In this document: positions 11,071 to 31,902 of the stretch, in pieces
Layout of the letters: every line of letters starts with the position of its first letter
Numbering within the stretch: the stretch's first letter is position 1
DNA from: Deltaproteobacteria bacterium
GTDB lineage: Bacteria; Desulfobacterota; GWC2-55-46; UBA9637
Assembly (NCBI GenBank): GCA_030690165.1
Contig: JAUYHF010000009.1
Span: 1-64,000, forward strand
Direction of reading: 5' to 3'
DNA length: 64,000 bases
Notes under the pieces: model-generated
Told to the model about the DNA's origin: nothing
The model's input: only the letters and a program-made list of their open reading frames with translations
The model's database searches: none
Position numbers and translations under genes: made by a program

Positions 11071-11117
11071 CAAACCTTAAGGTTTGAGTTACAGTAACTC
11101 AAGGCTTTAGCCTTGAG
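11071..11117. repeat. Three overlapping palindromes
   Basis: CAAACCTTAAGGTTTG (11071-11086) is a perfect palindrome. GAGTTACAGTAACTC (11086-11100) and CTCAAGGCTTTAGCCTTGAG (11098-11117) follow as inverted repeats, each overlapping the last. They sit between the restriction-modification gene and dppD and include the former's stop codon. They could form alternative hairpins acting as a 3' end or attenuator. Confidence 0.6.
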
Positions 11118-14100
11118 ATTTTTCAATCTCTGTATATATGCTGTCTATCTTATCCTGAATCTCTATTGTTTTCTTAAGGACAGCAACTATCCAGCAGTAA
11201 TGTTTTATATCATCAAGAGACAGCGCCCTGTCTTTTCTATCCTTGAGCCATTTATCCAGAACCTGATAGCCGCCGATCCGGTATTCCCAGACCTCTTGAG
11301 AAATGCCCTCAAAATACTGGTCTTTGTTTATGTAAACAACCCCCTGACCCCCTTTGTTAAGGGGGACAATCCTTAATTCCCCCTTTGTTAAGGGGGATTG
11401 AGGGGGTTGTTCATATTTCGGCTTTTCAACTTTATTATCTCCTTCGCCTTGAAATCTGGCAATGGACTGGCCGAGTTCCTCTGGTTTCAGAAGATGCAGT
11501 TCAATAAGCCTTTCGCCGTATTCTCCTATCTTCTTAAACAGTTTATAATCATTTGTAAAAGGAACTCGTGGAAAATCTATCTTCAAGAATTCAGCATATT
11601 TCTCACGATAGATGTTTGAATAAAGAACTGCATAAATGTAATAGAAAATTTCTTCAGGGGAAGGAGCTTTTTTAAAAGTTTCTTTCAGTTTTTCAAAAAG
11701 TTCCTGAGATATATTCGGCTTCTTTGCCAGATAATCTGCCTTTGGTTCAAAGAGCATCATTACACTGCTTAAAGATTTCTTCTTGGGTTTATCTTTAGGT
11801 TGATAGAGGTAAAGGGGGAAAAGGTAATTTATTTCGGTTGTTTTATTTGAAACAACGCAAGATTCAGCAATCGTATTACAAACAAATGTATGATAAAAAC
11901 TCGTACTACTTTGCTGTCTGCATGTTAATAATCCTAAATTCTCTTGGAGCATATGGTGCATGACCTCCCTTCGCGGACGTTCAATAAGCGCATCATGATA
12001 GAAAACCCACCGGTTGTCGAAAGGACGGTACAAAATTCTTGTAAAATCTTCTTCCCATTTATCATCTTTCCTGACTGTTTCCCGTGTGTCTTCAAGTTTC
12101 CAGTTGGATTTGTCTTTCAGGTTATAGGTTTGTTGCATGATTTCATCAGGTATTTTTTTATCCCTGAACTGCATTATTCTTCTTTTTAAAGCATTCCTGT
12201 CAGAGTCAATCACAAAATTGTCTCTTGCTGTAACTATCCCGACGCTGTTTACAGGAAATATATCCGTAATTTTAGGATAGGTTTCATACTGTTTTAAAAG
12301 CCCTTCATCTCTCGGTATAAAGAGATAAAATTCTGTTTTGGGATTTATCTTCTTCCACTTTGTTGTATTTATGTCATGTTTATCAAGATAGTTATATTTA
12401 TCTTTTCTCTCTCCCCATATCTCAGAATGGAAAACTTTGCATTTGTGTTTTTTGGGTTTTTCTTCAACTTCCTTTTCTGTAAAAATATCCATTTGCGGCG
12501 AAGGTGCGAACATTGGATAAATAGGCTCTTCTTTTACCTTCTGTTTTTTTATGAACAGTGAAATCGCAACACCCTGCCGGATGTCAAAGACATTCTCATC
12601 TTTTGAGCCATCAGGACATTTTTCTTTTTTGAGGCTGTTGCCGTGAAGGTCGAGTAGATAAATCTCGTCAAAGCTCTGCATCAATGAATGCCGCATCCCC
12701 CTGAATGTCGGATTATCCAGATAACTGTGATTCGTGATAAATCCTAAAACCCCTTCGCCAGCCTGATCTATCTTCCACTGGGCAAACCGTATGAATTTCA
12801 CATAGTCATCTTGCAGCCACTTTGGATTCTTTTCGCCAAGAGGTTTGCCGTCAACCTGATAGTATGCCTTTATCTCTTTTGATATCCAATCTCCGATATT
12901 GGTTGAATGCCCAGAGTAAGGCGGATTGCCGAGTATTACAAGAATGGACTGTTCCTTCTTGACAATACCTGCCAGATGCGATTCCTCTGAAAGCGATGCC
13001 ATGCCGGGAAGACTCGTCTGCTCAAGTTCCTCCATTTCTAATGTATTTGTAAGGAAAAGGTTGAATCTATCATCATCTTTAAGTTTGCAACCAAGTTCTT
13101 CCAGCAAAAAAGACATCTTTATATGTCCGATTGCATAAGGAGCCATCATCAGTTCAAAGGCATAGAAATTTTGAAGGATATACTCTCGGATAAACTTTTC
13201 TTTTGCTCCGTCTCCGTATTTGTAGATAAATTCTTCCACGGCGAGCTTGCTTGTTTCGGCAAGAAAGGTGAGTGTGCCTGCAGCCGGATCCAATACGGTT
13301 ACGGAACCTGATGCAAACCCGTCTCTTTTTTCAAAATATTTCTTCAGGATATTGTGCAGAGAACGGACAATATAAGAAACCACAGGCTCTGGCGTGTAAT
13401 AGACGCCTCTCTTTTCCCGCGTCTTTGGGTCATATTCCGCAAGAAATGTCTCATAAAAATGGACAATGGGGTCTTTGCCTTTATGTTTGTTAAAATACTC
13501 ATCAAGTATCTTATAAACATTTGTTGTAGCCAGAACATCTGATATGTCATCAATAATCCATTCCATCTGCCGGGGCAGATCGCCCAGTGAGATGAATCTG
13601 AATACATCCCTTAATATGCCTATTGTCCGTGGAATCTTATCGTATGCGAGTTTTCTGTTGAAACCGTTTTCTGTGCGGGTTCTGGCAGCAAAGAGGCCGT
13701 AGGCAATGGTTTGCGAATAAAGGTCTGCAAAGTCTTCCTTTGTCAGCCCGCTTATAAGATGCTCTTTAAACGCCTTATAAAAACCGAGGATGTTCCCTTT
13801 CCCCTTTTTTTCTTCTTCTTCCAACTCCTGTGCAATCACCTCATCCTTTAAAAAGCGCGTCCTCTTTGCAAGCTCTACTGCCAATGCTCTGGCATCATAG
13901 ACCTTTGGCAAGGAAAAAGAGAAGAATTTTCCCAACAGATTGCAAAAATCTTTTTCTTTCTCAACCGGCGGGACTGCCTTGAGTTTGTGAATGACAAACG
14001 GCCGCGCAATCTGGGCTTTATCAATCAACTGGCCGTTGCGGTAAAGTCTGAATTCAAAAAAGTTGGTTAATATAAGATTGGGAAAGGTATGAAGGTAACG

Positions 14101-14376
14101 TTTTAACTGCCCGGTTTCTTCTATATGGTCTAAATATTCAACTGTCGGCGCCTTTGCCTCAATATACCCTACTATCTGCTGTTTTCCATCCCATATTCTG
14201 AAATCAGGATTTCCGGCATCGGTTTTTTTAGGCAGGGTTGTAATGTCTACATTTTTCCTGTTTATTGAGTCAGCATAATTTGTTAGAAGCTCCTCAAGGC
14301 ATGAGTAGTAGCTCTCTTCCCTTGCATCGCCTCTATTTGTAATATCAGATACGCGTTTAAGATATGATTTCAGCAT
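11107..14376 (-). CDS. Single-chain type IIG/ISP-like restriction-modification enzyme
   Basis: The 1089-residue protein combines nuclease, methyltransferase and target recognition in one chain. Residues about 55-80 carry a PD-(D/E)xK-type nuclease core (NPDF at D58, E73-A-K75). An N6-adenine methyltransferase follows, with motif I-like DPAAGT (363-368) and motif IV NPPY (484-487). The C-terminal half resembles the specificity part of type ISP enzymes. No helicase domain is present, unlike LlaGI/LlaBIII (about 1500-1600 residues), so it is closer to type IIG. It starts only 3 bases after the dppC stop, within the peptide-transporter operon. A palindromic element at 11336-11410 is translated in frame near its C-terminus. 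Target sequence unknown. Confidence 0.85.
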   Translation of the reverse strand: MLKSYLKRVSDITNRGDAREESYYSCLEELLTNYADSINRKNVDITTLPKKTDAGNPDFRIWDGKQQIVGYIEAKAPTVEYLDHIEETGQLKRYLHTFPNLILTNFFEFRLYRNGQLIDKAQIARPFVIHKLKAVPPVEKEKDFCNLLGKFFSFSLPKVYDARALAVELAKRTRFLKDEVIAQELEEEEKKGKGNILGFYKAFKEHLISGLTKEDFADLYSQTIAYGLFAARTRTENGFNRKLAYDKIPRTIGILRDVFRFISLGDLPRQMEWIIDDISDVLATTNVYKILDEYFNKHKGKDPIVHFYETFLAEYDPKTREKRGVYYTPEPVVSYIVRSLHNILKKYFEKRDGFASGSVTVLDPAAGTLTFLAETSKLAVEEFIYKYGDGAKEKFIREYILQNFYAFELMMAPYAIGHIKMSFLLEELGCKLKDDDRFNLFLTNTLEMEELEQTSLPGMASLSEESHLAGIVKKEQSILVILGNPPYSGHSTNIGDWISKEIKAYYQVDGKPLGEKNPKWLQDDYVKFIRFAQWKIDQAGEGVLGFITNHSYLDNPTFRGMRHSLMQSFDEIYLLDLHGNSLKKEKCPDGSKDENVFDIRQGVAISLFIKKQKVKEEPIYPMFAPSPQMDIFTEKEVEEKPKKHKCKVFHSEIWGERKDKYNYLDKHDINTTKWKKINPKTEFYLFIPRDEGLLKQYETYPKITDIFPVNSVGIVTARDNFVIDSDRNALKRRIMQFRDKKIPDEIMQQTYNLKDKSNWKLEDTRETVRKDDKWEEDFTRILYRPFDNRWVFYHDALIERPRREVMHHMLQENLGLLTCRQQSSTSFYHTFVCNTIAESCVVSNKTTEINYLFPLYLYQPKDKPKKKSLSSVMMLFEPKADYLAKKPNISQELFEKLKETFKKAPSPEEIFYYIYAVLYSNIYREKYAEFLKIDFPRVPFTNDYKLFKKIGEYGERLIELHLLKPEELGQSIARFQGEGDNKVEKPKYEQPPQSPLTKGELRIVPLNKGGQGVVYINKDQYFEGISQEVWEYRIGGYQVLDKWLKDRKDRALSLDDIKHYCWIVAVLKKTIEIQDKIDSIYTEIEKSQG
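11336..11410. repeat. Palindromic repeat translated inside the R-M gene
   Basis: Outer arms ACAACCCCCT (11336-11345) and AGGGGGTTGT (11401-11410) enclose two copies of CCCCCTTTGTTAAGGGGG (11348-11365 and 11379-11396). The element keeps the reading frame open and adds residues such as PPQSPLTKGELRIVPLNKGG, which do not look like part of the domain. A similar design (outer arms, two inner hairpins) occurs at 60449-60540, and a half-element at 46398-46435. Confidence 0.8.
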
Positions 14377-20796: not shown

Positions 20797-21075
20797 ATGG
20801 ATGTTTTTTACAAGCCTGCATTCAGAAATTTTGTCAAAAAACAGACAAGGCCTTTTCAACTTGTTATTGAAGATGAAATTGACAGAATTAAAAACAATCC
20901 ATCTACTGGAGAAATTAAAAAGGGAGACCTTGCAGGATTTAGAGTTCATAAGTTTAAATTCCACCATCAACAATATCTTCTTGCATACGAAATACAGGGT
21001 AATGACATAGTGGTCTATGCGATAGGGACTCATGAAAACTTTTACAGAGACTTCAAACACTATATAAGGGGGTAA
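20797..21075 (+). CDS. RelE/ParE-superfamily toxin
   Basis: The 92-residue protein has the RelE-type fold pattern: an N-terminal strand (MDVFYKPAF), two helices, a central GDLAGFRVHKF segment, then LLAYEIQGNDIVVYAIGTHENFYRDF. Proteins of this class are ribosome-dependent mRNA interferases (RelE) or gyrase inhibitors (ParE). The toxin precedes a helix-turn-helix gene by six bases, the reversed order seen in HigBA-like modules. Family membership is clear; target is inferred. Confidence 0.8.
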   Translation: MDVFYKPAFRNFVKKQTRPFQLVIEDEIDRIKNNPSTGEIKKGDLAGFRVHKFKFHHQQYLLAYEIQGNDIVVYAIGTHENFYRDFKHYIRG

Positions 21076-21081
21076 ATAATT

Positions 21082-21387
21082 ATGATAACAACAATAACAG
21101 CGGAAAAGGTTTATAAGGAAATATTAGAAATGCCGGTAAAGGAAAGAGAGAAACTTTTCACCGTTATAGGAAGGCGGGGTTTTGAAAAAGAGGTTTATAC
21201 GCATGATGAGGTGTTTGACGATATAAGGCGGTACCCCTTTACTATAAAAGAGGCAGCGGAATATCTTGAGGTAGCAGAAATAACTGTCAGGAGATGGGTA
21301 AAGCAAGGGATTTTAAAATTTAAAAGAATCGGCAAAAATATAGTGTTTGAAACAGATGAACTTAAATCTTTTAAAAAGAAAGTCTGA
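21082..21387 (+). CDS. Helix-turn-helix antitoxin (excisionase/MerR-like)
   Basis: The 101-residue protein has a C-terminal winged HTH (FTIKEAAEYLEVAEITVRRWVKQGILKFKRIG), the excisionase-type DNA-binding motif. Its N-terminal 60 residues would be the toxin-binding part (KVYKEILEMPVKEREKLFTVI). A ribosome-binding site (AAGGGGG) precedes the ATG within the toxin stop region. It probably neutralises the upstream RelE-like toxin and represses the shared promoter. Confidence 0.75.
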   Translation: MITTITAEKVYKEILEMPVKEREKLFTVIGRRGFEKEVYTHDEVFDDIRRYPFTIKEAAEYLEVAEITVRRWVKQGILKFKRIGKNIVFETDELKSFKKKV

Positions 21388-21461: not shown

Positions 21462-23939
21462 TTAACCAACCTGTGCCAGTTCCATCCTTCCCTTCCATCT
21501 GGCATTGATTATCTCCTTTAACACCCTATGCCCTTCCTGTTCAAACTCAGGGTCGGTTTTTATCAGATTAAACGCCTCATCCCTTGCCTTCTGAAGCAGA
21601 GAGGCATCAGTCAAAAGGTTGGCAACCCTGAAATCAGGCAGACCTGACTGTCGCGTGCCGAGAAAATCTCCGGGGCCTCTAATCTTCAAGTCCTCCTCTG
21701 CTATCTTGAAACCATCGTTTGTCTCTTCCATTACTTTAAGCCTTTTGTATGTATCCACTGAGCCAATTTTACCGGCAAGAAGTATGCAGTATGAATCATG
21801 TTCTCCCCTTCCCACACGGCCCCTCAACTGATGAAGCTGGGAAAGGCCGAAGCGCTCTGCATGTTCCACCACCATACATGTTGCATTAGACACATCTATA
21901 CCTACCTCTATTACAGTGGTTGAAACAAGGATATCCATCTCCCTTGCCTTAAATGCCTTCATAACAGCCTCTTTTTCATCAGACTTCATCTTTCCGTGGA
22001 GAAGGCCTATCTTATATTCCGTAAATATATCTTTTCTAAGATGCTCTGACATCCTCGTAGCATCCTTTAAATCAAGTTCCTCTGACTCCTCTATTAAAGG
22101 ATAGACAATATAAACCTGTCTTCCCTTCTCCAGCTCACCCCTGATAATCTTATAAACTCCTTCTCTCTCCCTTTCTCTGAAGACCTTTGTTTTAACCGGC
22201 CTTCTTCCCGGAGGCAGCTCATCTATAACCGAAACATCAAGGTCTCCGAAAACTGTCATGGATAATGTCCTCGGTATCGGTGTTGCTGTCATAACGAGTA
22301 TATCAGGATTTGCCCCTTTTTTCTTAAGCATCGCCCTCTGGATAACGCCGAACCTGTGCTGTTCATCCACAATCACAAGTCCGAGCCTTGTAAATTCCAC
22401 ATCCTCCTGAATAAGGGCATGGGTGCCAATGGCAAGGTTTATATTACCAGTTTTTATATCATCCAGAATTGCCTTCCTTTCAGATTTCGTGAGGCTGCTT
22501 GTGAGGAGCGCAGTCTTAATGCTAAGACCTTCAGCATATTTATGGATATTAAGATAATGCTGTTCTGCAAGTATCTCCGTGGGCGCCATAATTGCGGCTT
22601 GATAGCCGTTATCAATTGCAATAATACTTGCCATAAACGCAACAACAGTCTTGCCGCAGCCGACATCGCCTTGAATAAGACGGTTCGCAGGGTGCGGCTC
22701 TGACATATCTTTTTTTATTTCCGAGACAACCCTCTCTTGCGCCGCGGTTAATTTAAATGGCAACATGTTTATAAAATTTTCAACCAGCGCGGAATCAGTA
22801 TTGAATGAAATGCCTTCTTCTTTGGCAAGCTTCTTCTGTTTGAGTGCAAGCCCCATTTCAAGGGAGAAGAGCTCATCAAACACAATGCCTTTTCTTGGCA
22901 ACCAGTTTGATAAGTTTGAGGTAGGGGCGTAAGGCATTACGCCCTTACTGATTTCGGAGTTTGGAGTTTCCGTAGGTTTATGAAGTTCAGCCACAGCATT
23001 TGGCAATTCCATAAGCCCGTATCTCTTCAGAACATCCGGTGGAACCGAGCCGATTACCATGGGTGAAAACTCATCAACTATGCCTCGTATGATCTTTCTT
23101 ATTGTCTTTTGATGCATATTCCCTACCTGCGAATAGACAGGCGCTATCGCATTAAAGTTAATGGAATCCAGTGTGTCATCATTTTCAAATATTTCTATAT
23201 CAGGGTGTATTATCTCCTTTTGGCCGCTGAAAATACCCACATCACCGTAAACGACAAGCCTCTGCCCGATTTTATATCTCTTTTTCATAAGCGGAAGCCT
23301 GTAATGGAACCATTTCAATTTAAGAAACCCGCTCCCATCGCTTATGGCAATCTCAAAGACCCTTCGCCTGCCGTAAAATACCTCGCCCATGGCCGCTATC
23401 TCACCTGATACAACCTCTTTAGCTTTTAATATAAGTTGAGATATCTTTTTCATCTTGCGTCTGTCCTCATACCTGATTGGTAGCCAATATAAAACATCCT
23501 CAACCGTATTCAACCCTTTATTTGCGAATACCTGGGCCAATTTCGGGCCTATGCCTTTAATGTTTTTCAAAGGGGTGGAGAGCTTAGATAATCTCGTTTT
23601 TATATCATCTAAAGAGTAGTGTTCAGCATTCAGCTTTAGGTTTTCAGCAAATACATCTACATCCGGCCGCTGATTGCTGATTACTTTGATAATCTCCAAT
23701 CCCATCCGGATTTTCTCCTTCTTTTCACCCACAGCCATTCTATCAAAGCCCTTGAATGCAGCCTCAAGTTCGCTCATTTTTTTAATGTCGTCATCTGAAA
23801 TTGGAAGGGATAAGGCTTGTTTGCAGAGCTTTCCCACAAGACCTTCAACATCTTTTACTGCTGAGATATGCGTAAAATTGTCTTTGGATGCAAATGTGAA
23901 GGGTTTAAGGAGGGTTGAGATTATTTGAGAAAGCTCCAT
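21462..23939 (-). CDS. recG: ATP-dependent DNA helicase RecG
   Basis: RecG remodels stalled replication forks and Holliday junctions. The 825-residue protein has an N-terminal extension, the OB-fold wedge domain (residues about 170-290), then Walker A (GDVGCGKT), DEQH (VDEQHRFG), MTATPIPRTL, and the C-terminal helicase motifs through VGRGEHDSYC and the TRB region. A palindromic/heptamer insertion (22921-22970) between the wedge and helicase core is translated as non-conserved residues (PTETPNSEISKGVMPYAPTS). An inverted repeat TTGGTTAA-A-TTAACCAA overlaps its stop codon. Confidence 0.95.
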   Translation of the reverse strand: MELSQIISTLLKPFTFASKDNFTHISAVKDVEGLVGKLCKQALSLPISDDDIKKMSELEAAFKGFDRMAVGEKKEKIRMGLEIIKVISNQRPDVDVFAENLKLNAEHYSLDDIKTRLSKLSTPLKNIKGIGPKLAQVFANKGLNTVEDVLYWLPIRYEDRRKMKKISQLILKAKEVVSGEIAAMGEVFYGRRRVFEIAISDGSGFLKLKWFHYRLPLMKKRYKIGQRLVVYGDVGIFSGQKEIIHPDIEIFENDDTLDSINFNAIAPVYSQVGNMHQKTIRKIIRGIVDEFSPMVIGSVPPDVLKRYGLMELPNAVAELHKPTETPNSEISKGVMPYAPTSNLSNWLPRKGIVFDELFSLEMGLALKQKKLAKEEGISFNTDSALVENFINMLPFKLTAAQERVVSEIKKDMSEPHPANRLIQGDVGCGKTVVAFMASIIAIDNGYQAAIMAPTEILAEQHYLNIHKYAEGLSIKTALLTSSLTKSERKAILDDIKTGNINLAIGTHALIQEDVEFTRLGLVIVDEQHRFGVIQRAMLKKKGANPDILVMTATPIPRTLSMTVFGDLDVSVIDELPPGRRPVKTKVFREREREGVYKIIRGELEKGRQVYIVYPLIEESEELDLKDATRMSEHLRKDIFTEYKIGLLHGKMKSDEKEAVMKAFKAREMDILVSTTVIEVGIDVSNATCMVVEHAERFGLSQLHQLRGRVGRGEHDSYCILLAGKIGSVDTYKRLKVMEETNDGFKIAEEDLKIRGPGDFLGTRQSGLPDFRVANLLTDASLLQKARDEAFNLIKTDPEFEQEGHRVLKEIINARWKGRMELAQVG
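22921..22970. repeat. Palindrome plus heptamer tract inside recG
   Basis: GTAGGGGCGTAA (22921-22932) pairs with TTACGCCCTTAC (22937-22948; 11 of 12 match). Three 7-bp units follow (GATTTCG, GAGTTTG, GAGTTTC; 22950-22970). The whole segment is translated in frame as extra residues in RecG. Confidence 0.75.
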
Positions 23940-23974
23940 GTCCTAATTCCTGAGAATCAGAAATAAGTAGATGT

Positions 23975-24334
23975 TCATTCAATTTTTTGATGCCGAATAC
24001 GAATACCCATAGGGGTAATGACTGAAAAGGACTCCATCAACTCACTGAAGTGTTTTATGATTAAGGGAACAACAATTTGAGCCTTCCTAATTGGGGATAA
24101 ACCAGCCAATCTGACCAGCACAACTCCGGAAGAAAGACGACGAAGACGAAATACCAATTCACCGAAGTCTTTATCTGCTGTTAATAAAAGAGCTCCTTCA
24201 CTGTTTGCAAGTTCAAGCACAACATCATCGGAAATTCCAGGGGCCATTTCAGCTACATAACCAACGATATATCCTTTCTCACGAAGCGCATCAACAATTT
24301 GCTTGTCGATGCTTTCATCTGCAAGTAAGTTCAC
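23975..24334 (-). CDS. DUF5615 PIN-like toxin
   Basis: The 119-residue protein begins MNLLADESIDKQIVDALREKGY and contains LLLTADKDFGELVF, the aspartate-bearing blocks of DUF5615 PIN-like nucleases (Mut7-C related). It is the predicted toxin of a DUF433-DUF5615 pair and overlaps its partner by four bases. RNase activity is inferred from the fold. Confidence 0.82.
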   Translation of the reverse strand: MNLLADESIDKQIVDALREKGYIVGYVAEMAPGISDDVVLELANSEGALLLTADKDFGELVFRLRRLSSGVVLVRLAGLSPIRKAQIVVPLIIKHFSELMESFSVITPMGIRIRHQKIE

Positions 24335-24567
24335 GCCGCCGCCCCGGCAACCGGATAAACAACATCCCCTTTTAAGACCTCGGCAGCAAAAGCAAGCGCA
24401 GCCTGAACACCTTCATGAGTCAACCTTGTATGAGCTTCAAGAATATCTTCCACTGTTTCGCCAGCAGCCAGTTTTTCTAAAATAAGTTCAACAGTTATTC
24501 TTGTTCCGGCTACAACAGGTTTCCCCATCATCACAGCCGGATCTGATACAATTAAATTCCTCACCAT
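24331..24567 (-). CDS. DUF433 antitoxin
   Basis: The 78-residue protein has the DUF433 signature (DPAVMMGKPVVAGTRITVELILEKLAAGETVEDIL), a short winged-helix that binds DNA. It lies upstream of and overlaps the DUF5615 toxin (ATGA), the standard arrangement. It probably represses the pair. Confidence 0.85.
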   Translation of the reverse strand: MVRNLIVSDPAVMMGKPVVAGTRITVELILEKLAAGETVEDILEAHTRLTHEGVQAALAFAAEVLKGDVVYPVAGAAA

Positions 24568-24727
24568 ATATACCTCCCTTGCAATTGCTTAATATTACCA
24601 TACCCGCAAATTATATAGCAAAAATATTGAGAAGGGCAAAATTCTTGAACCTTACCCTTAAGCGCTCTCTGTTACTGCCGCTGCTGTAAATTACTTTTAA
24701 ACGGCGCTACCCATATTAGTTTCTAAA

Positions 24728-26257
24728 TTATTTATTGCCGTTACTATAATAAAGACCCTTTTTATTATCGTATAATAGTTCACCTTTTTTCTGCCTTTCT
24801 GTTAACTCCGTTAATACAGTCTCAAAAAGCTTTTGCGCTGTATAGCGGCCAAATCGCGTCTCAGGTTCGCAACCTGGGGCACCAAGCGCAAGCCAACTAA
24901 GCAGTATCACCATACCAGTTGAACACCATCTGTTCTTTTTACTCAAAAGGTAACCATGTAATTCGTTAAAACTTATTGACTTCACAACGCCTTCCCAAGT
25001 TTCCCTGTGTGTTTCTTTAGCATGTGCAACATTATCTGGGGTTACATTTACGCCAAACAAGACAAACTCATCACTACTATCTTCATTATCTTCTATTAGC
25101 TTGACATGTCCCATCTTCACCTTTTTATTCCATTGTATAGAGAGACCGGTTTCTTCCAGAATCTCGCGCATAGCTGTTTTTATTAGACTATAATTGTCAA
25201 AAAGCTTATTCGGCGAGGACGCAGGCATATACCCGCCACCAAACACATGATAGCAACCAGCATATCGAGTGCCTTTTTTTCTTTTATGTAAATATATTTC
25301 CTTGTTTTCAACACAGAAAACAATAACGGTAGAGTAAATAACATTAGGCTTTTCCCCCCCTTCTTCTCTTAAGGCTGCAATTGTAGCATAATCGGTAGTG
25401 TAGTAATGCCACTTAGAATCTTCAATCTTTTTTGCAGAAATTGCATGAGGATCGTTTGGCCTTTTCTCATCTTCAAACTTTTTTTTCAGTTTGCCTATTT
25501 TTTGTTGATAATCATCTCCAAGCCATTCTTTTAACTTATCATCAAAATTAGGCACTTCATCAGACGCAGGAAGTAACGAAGGAATATCATCCAACTCTTT
25601 TATAAATTTTGCGGCCTTTAATTCATTACAAAAGAGTTTATTTAACTTTTTTATATAGTTCATTGCAACCTTAGGCGGTTCAAACCGATATATGGGAATT
25701 TGTTTGCCATGTTTAACTAATACGCTATCTTCAACGATGCCAATATTAGGCCTAGTTTCGCTATCAAAACTTTTGATATTATTATAAGTTTCTTTAGATA
25801 TAGCTAATTTATTTCTGTAACTTAGCCCCATTATCCGGAAAGCATTGTTAAGTGGTTTGCCAGCGAAATTCTCTCTATCATTTATATCTTTATAAATTAT
25901 GACATCGCCGCTATTAATACCAATCCTAATATTATATTTATTACATCTACAATATCCTTTGACTTCAAAATCGCATCGTTTGTGTTTACATTCTGGTTTT
26001 GTGTTGTTAGCGTCTATCTCCTTTAAAAGGTCAAATGCAAACCTTAATGGCAACTTATTACTCGGAGTTAAATCTTGAAAAATAACAGCCACGCCGTCTC
26101 CTGTTGGTAAAAGAGTCATTGTGTAAAGTTTCTTCATTTTTTCGAGATGTTCTGTGAATAGGTTGATTATTTTGAGTTGTGATACAGTATCTCTCAAAGA
26201 ATACTTTTCAATATCAACGGCAACGACATGAACATGTTTTATGTTTTGTTTCATCAT
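24728..26257 (-). CDS. Class III nucleotide cyclase-Nudix hydrolase fusion
   Basis: The 509-residue protein joins two enzymes. Residues about 8-195 resemble a class III adenylate/guanylate cyclase: metal-binding aspartates D15 (VDIEKYS) and D54 (PTGDGVAV), IRIGINSGDV, and the transition-state pair N137/R141 in LNNAFRI. A Cys-rich insert (C90, C95, C103, C105, with nearby His) may bind a metal. Residues about 305-440 are a Nudix domain with the core REILEETGL (364-372), though the leading G-x5-E half is altered by an insertion. A helical linker joins them. Neighbours are carB upstream and a DUF433/DUF5615 pair downstream. Possible roles are cyclic-nucleotide signalling with built-in turnover, or a Pycsar-like defence component; both are inferred. 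Confidence 0.75.
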   Translation of the reverse strand: MMKQNIKHVHVVAVDIEKYSLRDTVSQLKIINLFTEHLEKMKKLYTMTLLPTGDGVAVIFQDLTPSNKLPLRFAFDLLKEIDANNTKPECKHKRCDFEVKGYCRCNKYNIRIGINSGDVIIYKDINDRENFAGKPLNNAFRIMGLSYRNKLAISKETYNNIKSFDSETRPNIGIVEDSVLVKHGKQIPIYRFEPPKVAMNYIKKLNKLFCNELKAAKFIKELDDIPSLLPASDEVPNFDDKLKEWLGDDYQQKIGKLKKKFEDEKRPNDPHAISAKKIEDSKWHYYTTDYATIAALREEGGEKPNVIYSTVIVFCVENKEIYLHKRKKGTRYAGCYHVFGGGYMPASSPNKLFDNYSLIKTAMREILEETGLSIQWNKKVKMGHVKLIEDNEDSSDEFVLFGVNVTPDNVAHAKETHRETWEGVVKSISFNELHGYLLSKKNRWCSTGMVILLSWLALGAPGCEPETRFGRYTAQKLFETVLTELTERQKKGELLYDNKKGLYYSNGNK

Positions 26258-26409
26258 AGAGATATTCCCCTTAAAACACAGAGTGAATGGTGGTCACAGT
26301 CCATACTACGGGCTACAAGCCTTAAAGACAGACGGCAAGGCAAGGGAGTGTCAAGCCGTTATTTTTTGATATTTCCCCTTTTTTACATTGGCTAACACAG
26401 GTCAATGGG
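26258..26409. other. Short intergenic region carB to cyclase-Nudix
   Basis: About 150 bases with no gene. A minus-strand TTGACA occurs near 26348-26353, but no acceptable -10 lies at the right distance, so no promoter is called. Confidence 0.3.
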
Positions 26410-29400
26410 TTAACCCCTTGTCCCTGCTTCATGATATTCCTGTATCGACGTTACACCAAGCCCTTCTGTTATCAACGCGCCTATTCCGTGAGCTGCTGCC
26501 TTTGCTCCTGATACGGTGGTAAAATACGGAACGCTGTATACGAGCGCAGACCTTCTTATGGAATACGAATCCTTAACCGCCTTTATCCCGAATGATGTGT
26601 TGATGACCATAGCAATCTCTCCGCTTTTTATCTTATCAACTATATGAGGCCTGCCCTCTACGACCTTATACACAAATTCTGCATTAACCCCTTTTGCTTT
26701 CAGATGCTGGGCAGTCCCGCTTGTCGCTATGATTTTAAAACCCATAGACTCTAATTTCCTTGCAGCAGGTATAATCGCGTCTTTGTCATCGTCTTTAACA
26801 CTGATAAATACTGTGCCTTTTAAAGGGAGTTTTGCCCCTGCCGCAATCTGGGCCTTTGCAAATGCTCTCCCAAAATCTCTGTCTATCCCCATGACCTCGC
26901 CTGTTGATTTCATCTCAGGGCCAAGTATGGTATCAACTCCTGGAAATTTTATAAACGGGAATACCGATTCTTTTACCGATATATGTTCTGGCGCAGCCTC
27001 TTCTGTAAAACCCAGTTCTTTAAGCGTCTTGCCAAGCATAACCTTTGCAGCTATCTTTGCGAGCGGCCTTCCTATTGCCTTACTTACAAACGGAACAGTC
27101 CTGGATGCCCTTGGATTCACCTCAAGTATATAAACCGCATTATCCTTTACTGCGAACTGGACATTCATAAGCCCTATTACCTTTAGCTCCTTTGCAAGCG
27201 CATGTGCCTGCCTTCTAATATCTTCCATTACATCCAGGCTTAAGGAATACGGGGGAAGCGAACATGCCGAGTCGCCGGAATGGATGCCTGCCTCTTCAAT
27301 ATGCTCCATGATGCCGCCGATAACAACATCAGCGCCGTCGCTTACACAGTCAACATCAACCTCAATAGCATCGTTCAAAAAACGATCTGCATATATATCC
27401 AAGTCTTTGTCTGAAGAAATAATCAATTTCTTCAGATATTCATGTAATTCAGCTTGATTATAAACAATTGCCATAGCCCTACCACCTAACACATAAGATG
27501 GTCTAACAATAATTGGATAGTGAGTTTGTTCGGCGAGTCCATCAATTCCAGCATATATACCAATCTCAAATGCTTTTTTATTTGGTCTGATGTCAAAACC
27601 TTCAGGATAACGAAGCTCCAACTTATTCAATAGCTCACGAAATCTAAATCTATCTTCTGCAACATCAATGCTGTCAGAAGATGTTCCAAGAATGTTTACT
27701 CCAGCTTCTTTCAATGCTTTTGCCAATTTCAGCGGCGTCTGGCCGCCAAACTGCACAATAACGCCAAAAGGCTTTTCCTTATCAATTATGGCCATGACAT
27801 CCTCAAAGGTGAGAGGCTCAAAATACAGTCTGTCAGATGTATCGTAATCAGTTGAAACCGTCTCAGGATTGCAGTTCACCATTATGCTCTCAATCCCCTC
27901 TTCCTTGAGCGCAAATGACGCATGGACACAGCAATAATCAAATTCAATCCCCTGCCCGATTCGGTTCGGGCCGCTGCCGAGGATAACGACCTTTTTGCGG
28001 TTGGTGGGATTGGATTCGCAGTCTGACACAGGGATCGGGGAAAACTGACCCCTGACCCCCGACCCCTGACCCCTGGAATATGGTCTTTCATATGTTGAAT
28101 ACAGATACGGCGTGTGCGCCTCAAATTCTGCGCCGCATGTATCAACTGTCTTGTAAACAGGTCCAATGCCATATCCTTTTCTTATCTTCCTTACTTCGGT
28201 CTCGCTGGTATTTAAAAGTTGAGCGAGCCGTTTATCGGAAAACCCAAGTTCCTTTGCCTGCCATAAAAGTTCGGAGTTTTTCAATTCCGCAATCCGCAAT
28301 CCGCAATCCACAATCTCTTTTTCAAATTCCACAATATCCCTTATATTATTCAAAAACCATCTGTCAATCTTTGACAGGGCATATATCTCATCAACGGACA
28401 TACCGCATCTTAAGGCGTCCCCTATATACCAGAGCCTCTCCCAGTTTGGTATCCTCAGTTTCTCCTTAATTATTTCTATGTTTTCTTCTATCTTCTGGCT
28501 TCTGTCCTCTGTCTTCTTGGATTCAAACCCATAACTCCCTATCTCAAGCGACCTCATGGCCTTTTGCAGGGATTCTTTAAATGTCCTCCCTATGGCCATA
28601 GCCTCGCCAACTGACTTCATCTGCGTTGTAAGAGTTGCGTCTGCCTGCGGGAATTTTTCAAATGTAAATCTTGGAATCTTTGTAACCACATAATCTATGG
28701 TGGGCTCAAAACATGCAGGTGTCATCTTGGTTATGTCATTTGGAATTTCATCAAGTGTGTAGCCGACTGCCAATTTTGCCGCAATCTTTGCGATGGGAAA
28801 ACCTGTTGCCTTGCTCGCAAGCGCGGATGAGCGGGAGACCCTGGGGTTCATCTCTATCACATACATCTTGCCGTCAACAGGGTTCACTGAAAACTGTATA
28901 TTGGAGCCGCCTGTATCAACACCTATCTCCCTTATAATCTTTAAAGCAGCATCCCTCATTATCTGATATTCTTTGTCCGTCAGTGTTTGGGCAGGCGCAA
29001 CTGTGATGGAATCCCCTGTGTGCACGCCCATAGGATCAAAATTTTCAATGGAGCAAATAATCACCACATTGTCTTTCGTATCCCTCATTACCTCAAGCTC
29101 ATATTCCTTCCAGCCGATCACCGATTCTTCAATCAGAAGTTCACGGTAAGGGCTTGCATCAAGACCAAACTGAACCATTTCCTTAAACTCCTCAGCATTA
29201 TATGCAATGCCGCCGCCAGTGCCGCCGAGGGTAAACGATGGTCTTATGATGACAGGACAAGTCATCGTCTCTACTATGCTCAATGCATCCTGTAATGTCT
29301 TTGCATAACCGCTCCTCGGCACATTAAGGCCAATCATCTTCATTGCCTCCTTAAATAGTTCCCTGTCCTCCGCCTTTTTAATTGCATGGAGCTTTGCGCC

Positions 29401-29748
29401 TATGAGTTCAACACCATATTTTTCAAGGATACCGGACTCTGCAAGAATAACGGCAGTATTAAGCGCTGTCTGGCCGCCCATAGTTGGCAGCAACGCATCC
29501 GGTCTTTCCTTTTCAATTATCTTCTCAACTATCTCAGGCGTAATCGGTTCAATGTAGGTTCTGTCTGCCAGCCCCGGATCTGTCATTATTGTTGCCGGGT
29601 TTGAGTTTATAAGTATTACCTTATACCCTTCTTCCTTCAGCGCCTTGCACGCCTGTGTGCCTGAATAATCAAACTCGCAAGCCTGTCCTATGACAATAGG
29701 CCCGGCGCCAATGATTAAGATGCTTTTTATGTCAGTTCGTTTAGGCAA
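26410..29748 (-). CDS. carB: Carbamoyl-phosphate synthase large subunit
   Basis: CarB makes carbamoyl phosphate for pyrimidine and arginine synthesis using ammonia passed from CarA. The 1112-residue protein has two ATP-grasp halves ([10 protein letters not shown] in the first, [12 protein letters not shown] in the second), an oligomerisation domain between them, and a C-terminal MGS-like allosteric domain. It is longer than the usual 1060-1080 residues because three heptamer-repeat tracts in and after the oligomerisation domain add non-conserved segments ([36 protein letters not shown]). The small-subunit gene carA lies 4 kb away, separated by toxin-type genes and a phosphorylase. Confidence 0.96.
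28045..28076. repeat. Heptamer tandem repeat inside carB (1)
   Basis: Four and a half 7-bp units (CTGACCC, CTGACCC, CCGACCC, CTGACCC), translated on the minus strand as [10 protein letters not shown], just before the second ATP-grasp half. Confidence 0.85.
28284..28317. repeat. Heptamer tandem repeat inside carB (2)
   Basis: Units ATTCCGC, AATCCGC, AATCCGC, AATCCAC and a partial copy, translated as [10 protein letters not shown] within the oligomerisation domain. Confidence 0.8.
28485..28519. repeat. Heptamer tandem repeat inside carB (3)
   Basis: Units CTTCTAT, CTTCTGG, CTTCTGT, CCTCTGT, CTTCTTG, translated as [13 protein letters not shown] after the first ATP-grasp half. Confidence 0.75.
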
Positions 29749-30276: not shown

Positions 30277-30642
30277 TTACGAGTCATTTTTCTTTTTGCC
30301 CGCCGAAATCCTATCGCTTACCACCTTTAATATCTCCCTGATGTTCCATTCATGCGATTCCGTTATTTCGCCGGAAATATGCCTGTGGTGCGGATAAGTC
30401 GGGACTTCCTTGTGGTGATGAGAATTATCCCATCTTGATATCAGATTGCCTTCAACATCCTGCCAGTGATAAGAATATTTTCTTCTGCCGTCCAAAAAGA
30501 GATAGTCTCTGATATGCAGAACAGATTCGTTTACAAACCGAATCTTCGCCGCAAATGACATGCCGGAACCGTATCTCTTGTGTTCCAAGACAGAGAAACT
30601 GGCGACGATATCTGAAAACTCCTCTATTGTCTTATAAAACAT
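30277..30642 (-). CDS. TumE-family (DUF6516) toxin
   Basis: The 121-residue protein has the DUF6516/TumE layout: an N-terminal helix, strands with LHIRDYLFLDGRRKYSYHWQ, then a conserved His-rich block (RWDNSHHHKEVPTYPHHRH) and a C-terminal helix. Databases name this family a type II toxin; its mechanism is not well established. It overlaps the upstream partner by 11 bases, indicating coupled translation. Confidence 0.75.
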   Translation of the reverse strand: MFYKTIEEFSDIVASFSVLEHKRYGSGMSFAAKIRFVNESVLHIRDYLFLDGRRKYSYHWQDVEGNLISRWDNSHHHKEVPTYPHHRHISGEITESHEWNIREILKVVSDRISAGKKKNDS

Positions 30643-30937
30643 TCTTCAACTCTTTCAGTTTCCCTTCCCAGTAGTCCTTTCCCTCTTGTGCAAATTTCCA
30701 CGCCATCAAGTCGTCATATTGCGCGAAATCCTCTTCCCCTGCCTCATATTCTCTATTAAAGTTATCGAATCCTTTGCCATACTTTTTCTCAAAATGCTCC
30801 ACCTCTTCGGAAAAATTAGAGACCTTGCAAACAATCTCTGTCATAACCGTGTCTTTTATCAAATCTTCAACCCCTTTAAATTCAAGCTCCCGAATAATGT
30901 TTTTAATCTTTTCATTAATCACAATTTCTGTTTTCAT
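30632..30937 (-). CDS. Putative antitoxin partner of the TumE-like toxin
   Basis: The 101-residue acidic, helical protein (KIKNIIRELEFKGVEDLIKDTVMTEI..., NREYEAGEEDFAQYDDLMAWKF) precedes and overlaps the toxin gene. A good ribosome-binding site (GGGAGGTTGACTA) precedes its ATG. No helix-turn-helix is evident, so DNA binding is uncertain. The antitoxin role is inferred from position. Confidence 0.6.
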   Translation of the reverse strand: MKTEIVINEKIKNIIRELEFKGVEDLIKDTVMTEIVCKVSNFSEEVEHFEKKYGKGFDNFNREYEAGEEDFAQYDDLMAWKFAQEGKDYWEGKLKELKNVL

Positions 30938-31026
30938 TAGTCAACCTCCCGAATATTTTTTACGCGAGCCGTCCTTCCGCTCTTGTTTCTGATTCGTTTA
31001 TAAAATATTAAATATTATTCTTTATC

Positions 31027-31902
31027 CTACTCAACACCGATTTTCCAAACACCCTTTTCTAAAAAAGCCTCAATGGTTTGTCTATTGGCTTTATTTATAA
31101 GATTCGAATGTGAAAGTTTATTGTTCTTTGCATAGCCGGCAAGGGTAATGATTTTTTTACCTTCCAAATACGTCAATCGTTTATGATAACTATTCGTAAG
31201 CGCTTTTCCCACTATTTCTTCCATGATGGCGGTCTTGCCTTTTTCATCAAATTCTTTAAATTCTTCGTAATATTTTTTCCTATCAATAAATTTTATATTT
31301 ATCGGAACAAATCCTTCCCGTATCAACAAATAATTATTAATGACACGTCCAATACGACCGTTACCGTCAACAAAAGGATGAACATACTCAAAAGTAAGGT
31401 GTAATTTTGCTATACGCTTGATGATATTTTTATGACTTGTGGCATTATACTCTGCCAGCATTTTTTCAAGACGATCCGTTATCTCTTTCGGATTGGGCGC
31501 AATATGATTCCCGACACGAACATATTCATTATTATTTCTGAACCTTCCGGCAATATCGTCACGGATATTTGAAATCAACATCTTGTGAAGTAATAAAATT
31601 ACCTCAAGAATAAGTTCTCGTTCATTAGCCCTTTTATCTATGTATGATACAACTTGCGCAAGGTTCTTTGCTTCAAAGATTTCTCGTTCGGTGATAAATC
31701 TATCCAAATCAATTTGAAGAAGTATCTTTTCAGTTTCTTCAAGGGTAAGCGTGCTGTTCTCTATAGCATTTGAGTTATATACCTGTTCAGCAACTTCAGT
31801 TTCGGCAATGAGTTTAATAAGAGCATCTTTGCCTATGGACGCTTTATAGTATCTCTCGCGAAGAGAATTTACCTTATTAAAAACATTAAGTGTTTTTGCC
31901 AT
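31027..31902 (-). CDS. Fic-family AMP-transferase with N-terminal inhibitory motif
   Basis: The 291-residue protein has the Fic catalytic motif HPFVDGNGRIGR. In its N-terminal region it has the inhibitory-helix signature S-x3-E-N (SNAIEN), making it a class II Fic protein. Such proteins usually transfer AMP from ATP to a protein side chain. The last 55 residues resemble a small winged-helix DNA-binding tail, seen in Fic proteins that bind their own promoter. The promoter overlaps three copies of TTTTCACGGTT-like sites, fitting autoregulation. The predicted transcription start coincides with the ATG. Its substrate is unknown. Confidence 0.88.
   Translation of the reverse strand: MAKTLNVFNKVNSLRERYYKASIGKDALIKLIAETEVAEQVYNSNAIENSTLTLEETEKILLQIDLDRFITEREIFEAKNLAQVVSYIDKRANERELILEVILLLHKMLISNIRDDIAGRFRNNNEYVRVGNHIAPNPKEITDRLEKMLAEYNATSHKNIIKRIAKLHLTFEYVHPFVDGNGRIGRVINNYLLIREGFVPINIKFIDRKKYYEEFKEFDEKGKTAIMEEIVGKALTNSYHKRLTYLEGKKIITLAGYAKNNKLSHSNLINKANRQTIEAFLEKGVWKIGVE

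Follow-up and report, generated by a model that had tools for sequence, protein, structure and literature searches.

Class III adenylate and guanylate cyclases (PF00211) have a common fold with two metal-binding aspartates, an Asn/Arg pair and a phosphate-contacting lysine. A core of this class is also found in PycC, the Pycsar cyclase, for which pyrimidine-selecting residues have been reported in clades B, D and E and a zinc site near the C terminus in clade D (PMC11224242). NUDIX domains are likewise tied to nucleotide-based immunity, through the TM–NUDIX effector Cap16 of CBASS (PMC10419184), and an inverted (inhibitory) signalling logic operates in Panoptes (PMC12657230) and Clover (PMC12265719).

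Here we describe a gene from a 64,000-nucleotide stretch of DNA (hereafter the window) whose product combines a class III-type cyclase, a cysteine-rich insert and a Nudix module. The protein agrees with PF00211 cyclases in fold and in all of the positions named above but, unlike them, bears the Cys insert and the Nudix fusion. It shares the class III core with PycC, differing in its base-pocket residues and in having no separate effector gene; the Cys insert differs from the clade D zinc site in both chain position and spacing. Compared with CBASS Cap16, there is no CD-NTase next to the gene, a domain search finds no transmembrane-type domain in the chain, and the cyclase resides in the same polypeptide. 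The Nudix part resembles PF00293 hydrolases in the REILEETGL half of its box and in the flanking strand pattern, departing from them in a longer loop within the box and an extra conserved N-terminal part of ~100 residues. This small, recurrent architecture, which places a cyclic-nucleotide synthesis domain and a Nudix enzyme in one chain, is apparently undescribed: the original prediction knew of no system with such a fusion and we found none in the open-licence literature, where absence is weak evidence.

One gene encodes the cyclase and Nudix domains

The fusion gene (P0001) is complete and occupies 24728–26257 on the minus strand, where the original prediction had placed it, as a single open reading frame of 509 codons. 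No open run in the other five frames of this interval exceeds 79 codons. A good ribosome site (AAGGGG) stands ahead of the ATG; neither sigma-70-type nor terminator signals exceeded chance. The 509-residue chain is differentiated into a class III cyclase domain (residues 1–195, 25673–26257 on the minus strand, as are all features of the chain), which contains the Cys insert (residues 86–107, 25937–26002; C90, H92, C95, C103 and C105), the N-terminal part of the Nudix module (residues 196–300, 25358–25672) and a Nudix domain with a C-terminal helix region (residues 301–509, 24731–25357), including the Nudix box (residues 340–372, 25142–25240). The original prediction had read into this one chain a cyclase core with both metal aspartates and the N/R pair, a cluster of C90, C95, C103 and C105, and an intact REILEETGL half, and all three hold up in alignments of relatives.

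A search for the same fusion, which that prediction had proposed, recovers a full-length relative, L126, from a distant genome. Because L126 has the same architecture, colinear over residues 7–482 (36–37% identity, E = 2.6 × 10−67), the fusion is neither an assembly artefact nor two genes joined by chance or by a frameshift, nor is it unique to the window genome. At only 36% identity, the two proteins keep the catalytic residues of both domains, and L126 retains all four cysteines. The cyclase–Nudix pairing represents a real, recurrent and apparently undescribed signalling protein family.

The cyclase domain and its Cys insert

Pfam Guanylate_cyc (PF00211) matches residues 4–169 above cut-off. 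Across 17 diverse cyclases (the window protein and 16 relatives), the residues assigned to metal (D15 and D54), transition state (N137 and R141) and phosphate (K182) are invariant. An AF2 model of the domain, built on the 17-sequence alignment, has pLDDT values of 82–95 over residues 1–90 and above 89 over 111–160; its best Foldseek match is 5oyh (E = 2.7 × 10−12, target TM 0.76), with 6sir also matched, so both model and search give the N-terminal half a cyclase fold.

The base pocket is less conventional. PF00211 cyclases place a lysine four residues before the second metal aspartate and an aspartate three residues before a conserved glycine, whereas the window protein has Leu50 and Asn130 at these positions (profile alignments to Ma1120 and 6aoa/5oyh); the purine-selecting Lys/Asp (or Glu/Cys) pair is thus absent. 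Since the alignment shows this altered pocket throughout the subfamily, the substrate base is not predictable by the canonical rule. Outside the Cys-insert group, the nearest relatives are stand-alone cyclases with the signature PTGDG/DTGDG ... DINxxxNxxG (L005 from Smithella, L006 from Dehalococcoidaceae, L007 from Spirochaetales, L028 and a Gallionella protein). These share 21–32% identity and the same altered pocket with the window cyclase but possess neither Cys insert nor Nudix module, carrying other C-terminal domains or none.

The Cys insert is missing from ordinary cyclase relatives in our alignments. Six Cys-insert cyclases all have C90, C103 and C105, and C95 is common to the window protein and L126; this conservation makes a metal site likely, probably one for zinc. 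Cys-insert cyclases form one side of a tree branch (89/89); the Cys site is specific to their subfamily.

The Nudix module

The Pfam NUDIX profile matches residues 311–392 of the window protein under its cut-off (E = 0.0055, or 0.0011 for the domain alone), passes it in a homologous module, L119 (24.5 bits against 21.1), and matches five of the seven modules at E ≤ 1. REILEETGL spans residues 364–372, of which R364, E365, E368, E369, G371 and L372 are invariant in all seven, and conservation among the modules extends along their whole length. The canonical GX5EX7 spacing before RE is absent, with a ~10-residue insertion between GGG and REIL. Fused and stand-alone modules have in common the motifs of the N-terminal part (LNxLF ... 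NDPHA ... YYTTDYATIxxLR), and a profile alignment reaches MutT-type proteins such as 3grn. Structure prediction had been suggested for both domains; it bore out the cyclase fold, the Nudix half reaching a pLDDT of 33 in a single-sequence AF2 run made without an alignment.

Relatives and exchange of C-terminal modules

No other fusion was found in 63 genomes of the host class or 297 of the host phylum, nor in the phyla of L006 (251 genomes), L007 (247 genomes) and L009 (348 genomes), and a genome-contig scan seeded with cyclase-only relatives returned solely cyclase-only proteins. The fusions and separate modules described below all come from one order (48 genomes) of Pseudomonadota, the phylum of L023, sampled at 398 genomes; within that order they occupy ten places in eight genomes. 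This small sample holds one complete fusion, L126, and one split across contigs: L127 and L128 are its halves, each at the end of a different contig in a single genome, and are probably one gene split by assembly.

The two halves also occur in other combinations. Four genomes encode the Nudix module alone with its catalytic residues intact (L123, L119, L121 and L129), and three encode the same Cys-insert cyclase (31–32% identity to that of the window) with an FGE-sulfatase domain in the place of Nudix (L122, L124 and L125). As the cyclase can carry either C-terminal partner, it behaves as a portable input module, and the swappable C-terminal module joins the Cys site as a hallmark of the architecture. 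Three of the stand-alone modules (L119, L121 and L129) lie between a copper-type P-ATPase gene (copA) and queF. The fourth, L123, occupies the ccmE–ccmF gap, as does the fused L126, and the two are sisters in the tree (95/93); the cyclase half was therefore probably lost in L123, and the Nudix module can evidently work without a cyclase, as expected for an output domain.

A conserved operon surrounds the cyclase–FGE fusions (L122:2489–8663, L124:7341–12711 and L125:201–6252), composed of an EamA transporter, the fusion itself, an asparaginase, a tRNA-editing (YbaK-type) protein and a TIR-like protein. The TIR-like gene matches TIR_2 just below cut-off in L125 and is broken or fragmentary in L122 and L124. 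The operon may constitute a separate undescribed signalling or conflict system.

A proposed bifunctional enzyme

Our best explanation, held tentatively, is a bifunctional, modular signalling enzyme whose output is the Nudix module. The N-terminal class III-type domain would dimerize and convert an NTP into a cyclic nucleotide, with the Cys insert forming a putative metal site that stabilizes or gates the cyclase. The Nudix module is a predicted pyrophosphohydrolase of some nucleoside-diphosphate-linked substrate—candidates are the NTP pool, a dinucleotide or another NDP-X—and the cyclase would control this activity through its state or its product. The missing GX5E spacing of the Nudix box and the replaced purine-selecting residues count against this explanation. 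If active, the protein would provide a direct coupling between a messenger and the removal of a diphosphate-linked nucleotide. The fusion also offers a mutational test, at two residues per domain, of whether class III cyclases with altered base pockets make a new messenger.

With the purine-selecting residues replaced, the cyclase might only bind nucleotides, and we consider it rather unlikely, though not negligibly so, that the protein is simply a regulated Nudix hydrolase: a housekeeping enzyme gated by a cyclase-like NTP sensor that makes no signal. The stable retention of the module alone at the same copA–queF position in three genomes fits this reading, as does loss of the cyclase half as the simplest account of L123. 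However, the cyclase has diverged strongly yet conserves every metal, transition-state and phosphate residue, which is unlike a degenerate binding domain.

A foreign insertion between carB and recG

The fusion gene is part of a 2.5-kb insertion (23940–26409) between recG (21462–23939) and carB (26410–29748). Downstream of it, in the same insertion, profile matches identify a DUF433 gene (24331–24567, minus strand), a probable antitoxin, and a DUF5615 PIN-like gene (23975–24334, minus strand), a probable toxin. The insertion is missing from four related genomes, where carB and recG are 78–254 bases apart, and within its class is seen in the window genome alone. The fusion gene has 35% G+C, against 44–45% for carB and the whole window. 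This compositional and comparative evidence shows the fusion gene to be foreign, horizontally acquired cargo; a search of the island ends for a mobile element revealed neither clear target-site duplication nor terminal inverted repeats.

In G147, a genome of the same genus, a type III methyltransferase gene comes after carB, then a PIN gene and a res gene reaching the contig end; on another contig, the end of a res gene precedes recG. These genes lie at L112:4358–9410 and L099:159–1382. Taken with the window insertion, this means that the gap has been used for cargo at least twice, once for restriction–modification (R–M), and it looks like a recurrent insertion site.

A possible role in defence

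The original prediction proposed a defence role, for example Pycsar-like, from the gene neighbourhood. Membership of Pycsar itself was rejected on two grounds. First, the flanking genes are carB, DUF433, DUF5615 and recG, with no adjacent PycTM or PycTIR effector gene bearing a cyclic-nucleotide receptor. Second, the PycC base-pocket residues (Y50/D94/R97, F60/K104/F109 or F100/R142/Q144), placed by distance from the metal aspartates and not by superposition, are absent.

A broader version of the idea is a single-chain anti-phage system, in which infection would alter cyclase output and the Nudix domain, as a toxic or nucleotide-depleting effector, would be switched in cis, the product either turning it on (Pycsar-like) or holding it off (as in the inhibitory signalling of Panoptes and Clover). 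We regard this as unlikely. Its setting speaks for it: a foreign, AT-rich insertion confined within its class to the window genome, in a gap that in G147 holds type III R–M with a PIN gene (modest support, from one comparison), with several toxin–antitoxin pairs, a Fic gene and a type ISP R–M gene elsewhere in the window. A Cys-insert cyclase fused to FGE sits near a TIR-like gene, and CBASS Cap16 provides a precedent for a NUDIX domain in immunity (PMC10419184). The PADLOC PycC profile gives the window protein a weak match (E = 1.8 × 10−4), although it also matches ordinary relatives weakly, and L126 not at all. Against the proposal, no CNBD, TM or TIR effector adjoins the gene; A13, L50, T52 and G55 stand where clades B, D and E of PycC have their specificity residues (PMC11224242); and homologues reside in ccm and copA–queF loci, which are housekeeping operons. 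Nor was a homologue found in scans of viral contigs, plasmids and phages, a weak negative given poor patterns drawn from one protein.

More specifically, and with still less likelihood in our estimation, the gene could amount to an entire immune system by itself. The cyclase would make a nucleotide that the same chain senses; when a phage attacks nucleotide pools, this nucleotide would keep the Nudix effector off or, alternatively, activate it, so that Pycsar or Panoptes/Clover signalling would run in cis.

Nudix hydrolases cut diphosphate linkages, and 3′,5′-cyclic mononucleotides contain none. It is for this reason very improbable that the protein makes and degrades its own signal, as had also been suggested from the presence of both domains in one chain: removal by Nudix could extend no further than the NTP substrate or a dinucleotide product, and the module is also found without a cyclase.

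Other features of the window

A type ISP single-chain R–M enzyme is encoded at 11107–14376; the original prediction had counted it as a neighbour of the fusion, and it is present but ~10 kb away, inserted among opp transporter genes. Just beyond carB, 30277–31902 is likely another foreign segment, containing a TumE-type toxin gene, preceded by a small partner (30632–30937), next to an AT-rich Fic gene (34.6% G+C). Between lpxK and recG, the opposite strand carries a gene for a ParE/RelE-like toxin and a small partner of helix-turn-helix type (20797–21387), and a Mutator-family transposase gene is found at 984–2177. In several relatives (G343:C82, G340:C4 and G016:C70), carB matches are broken near residue 870, and in G343 also near 562–574; the carbamoyl-phosphate synthase large subunits of these relatives may be split or interrupted.
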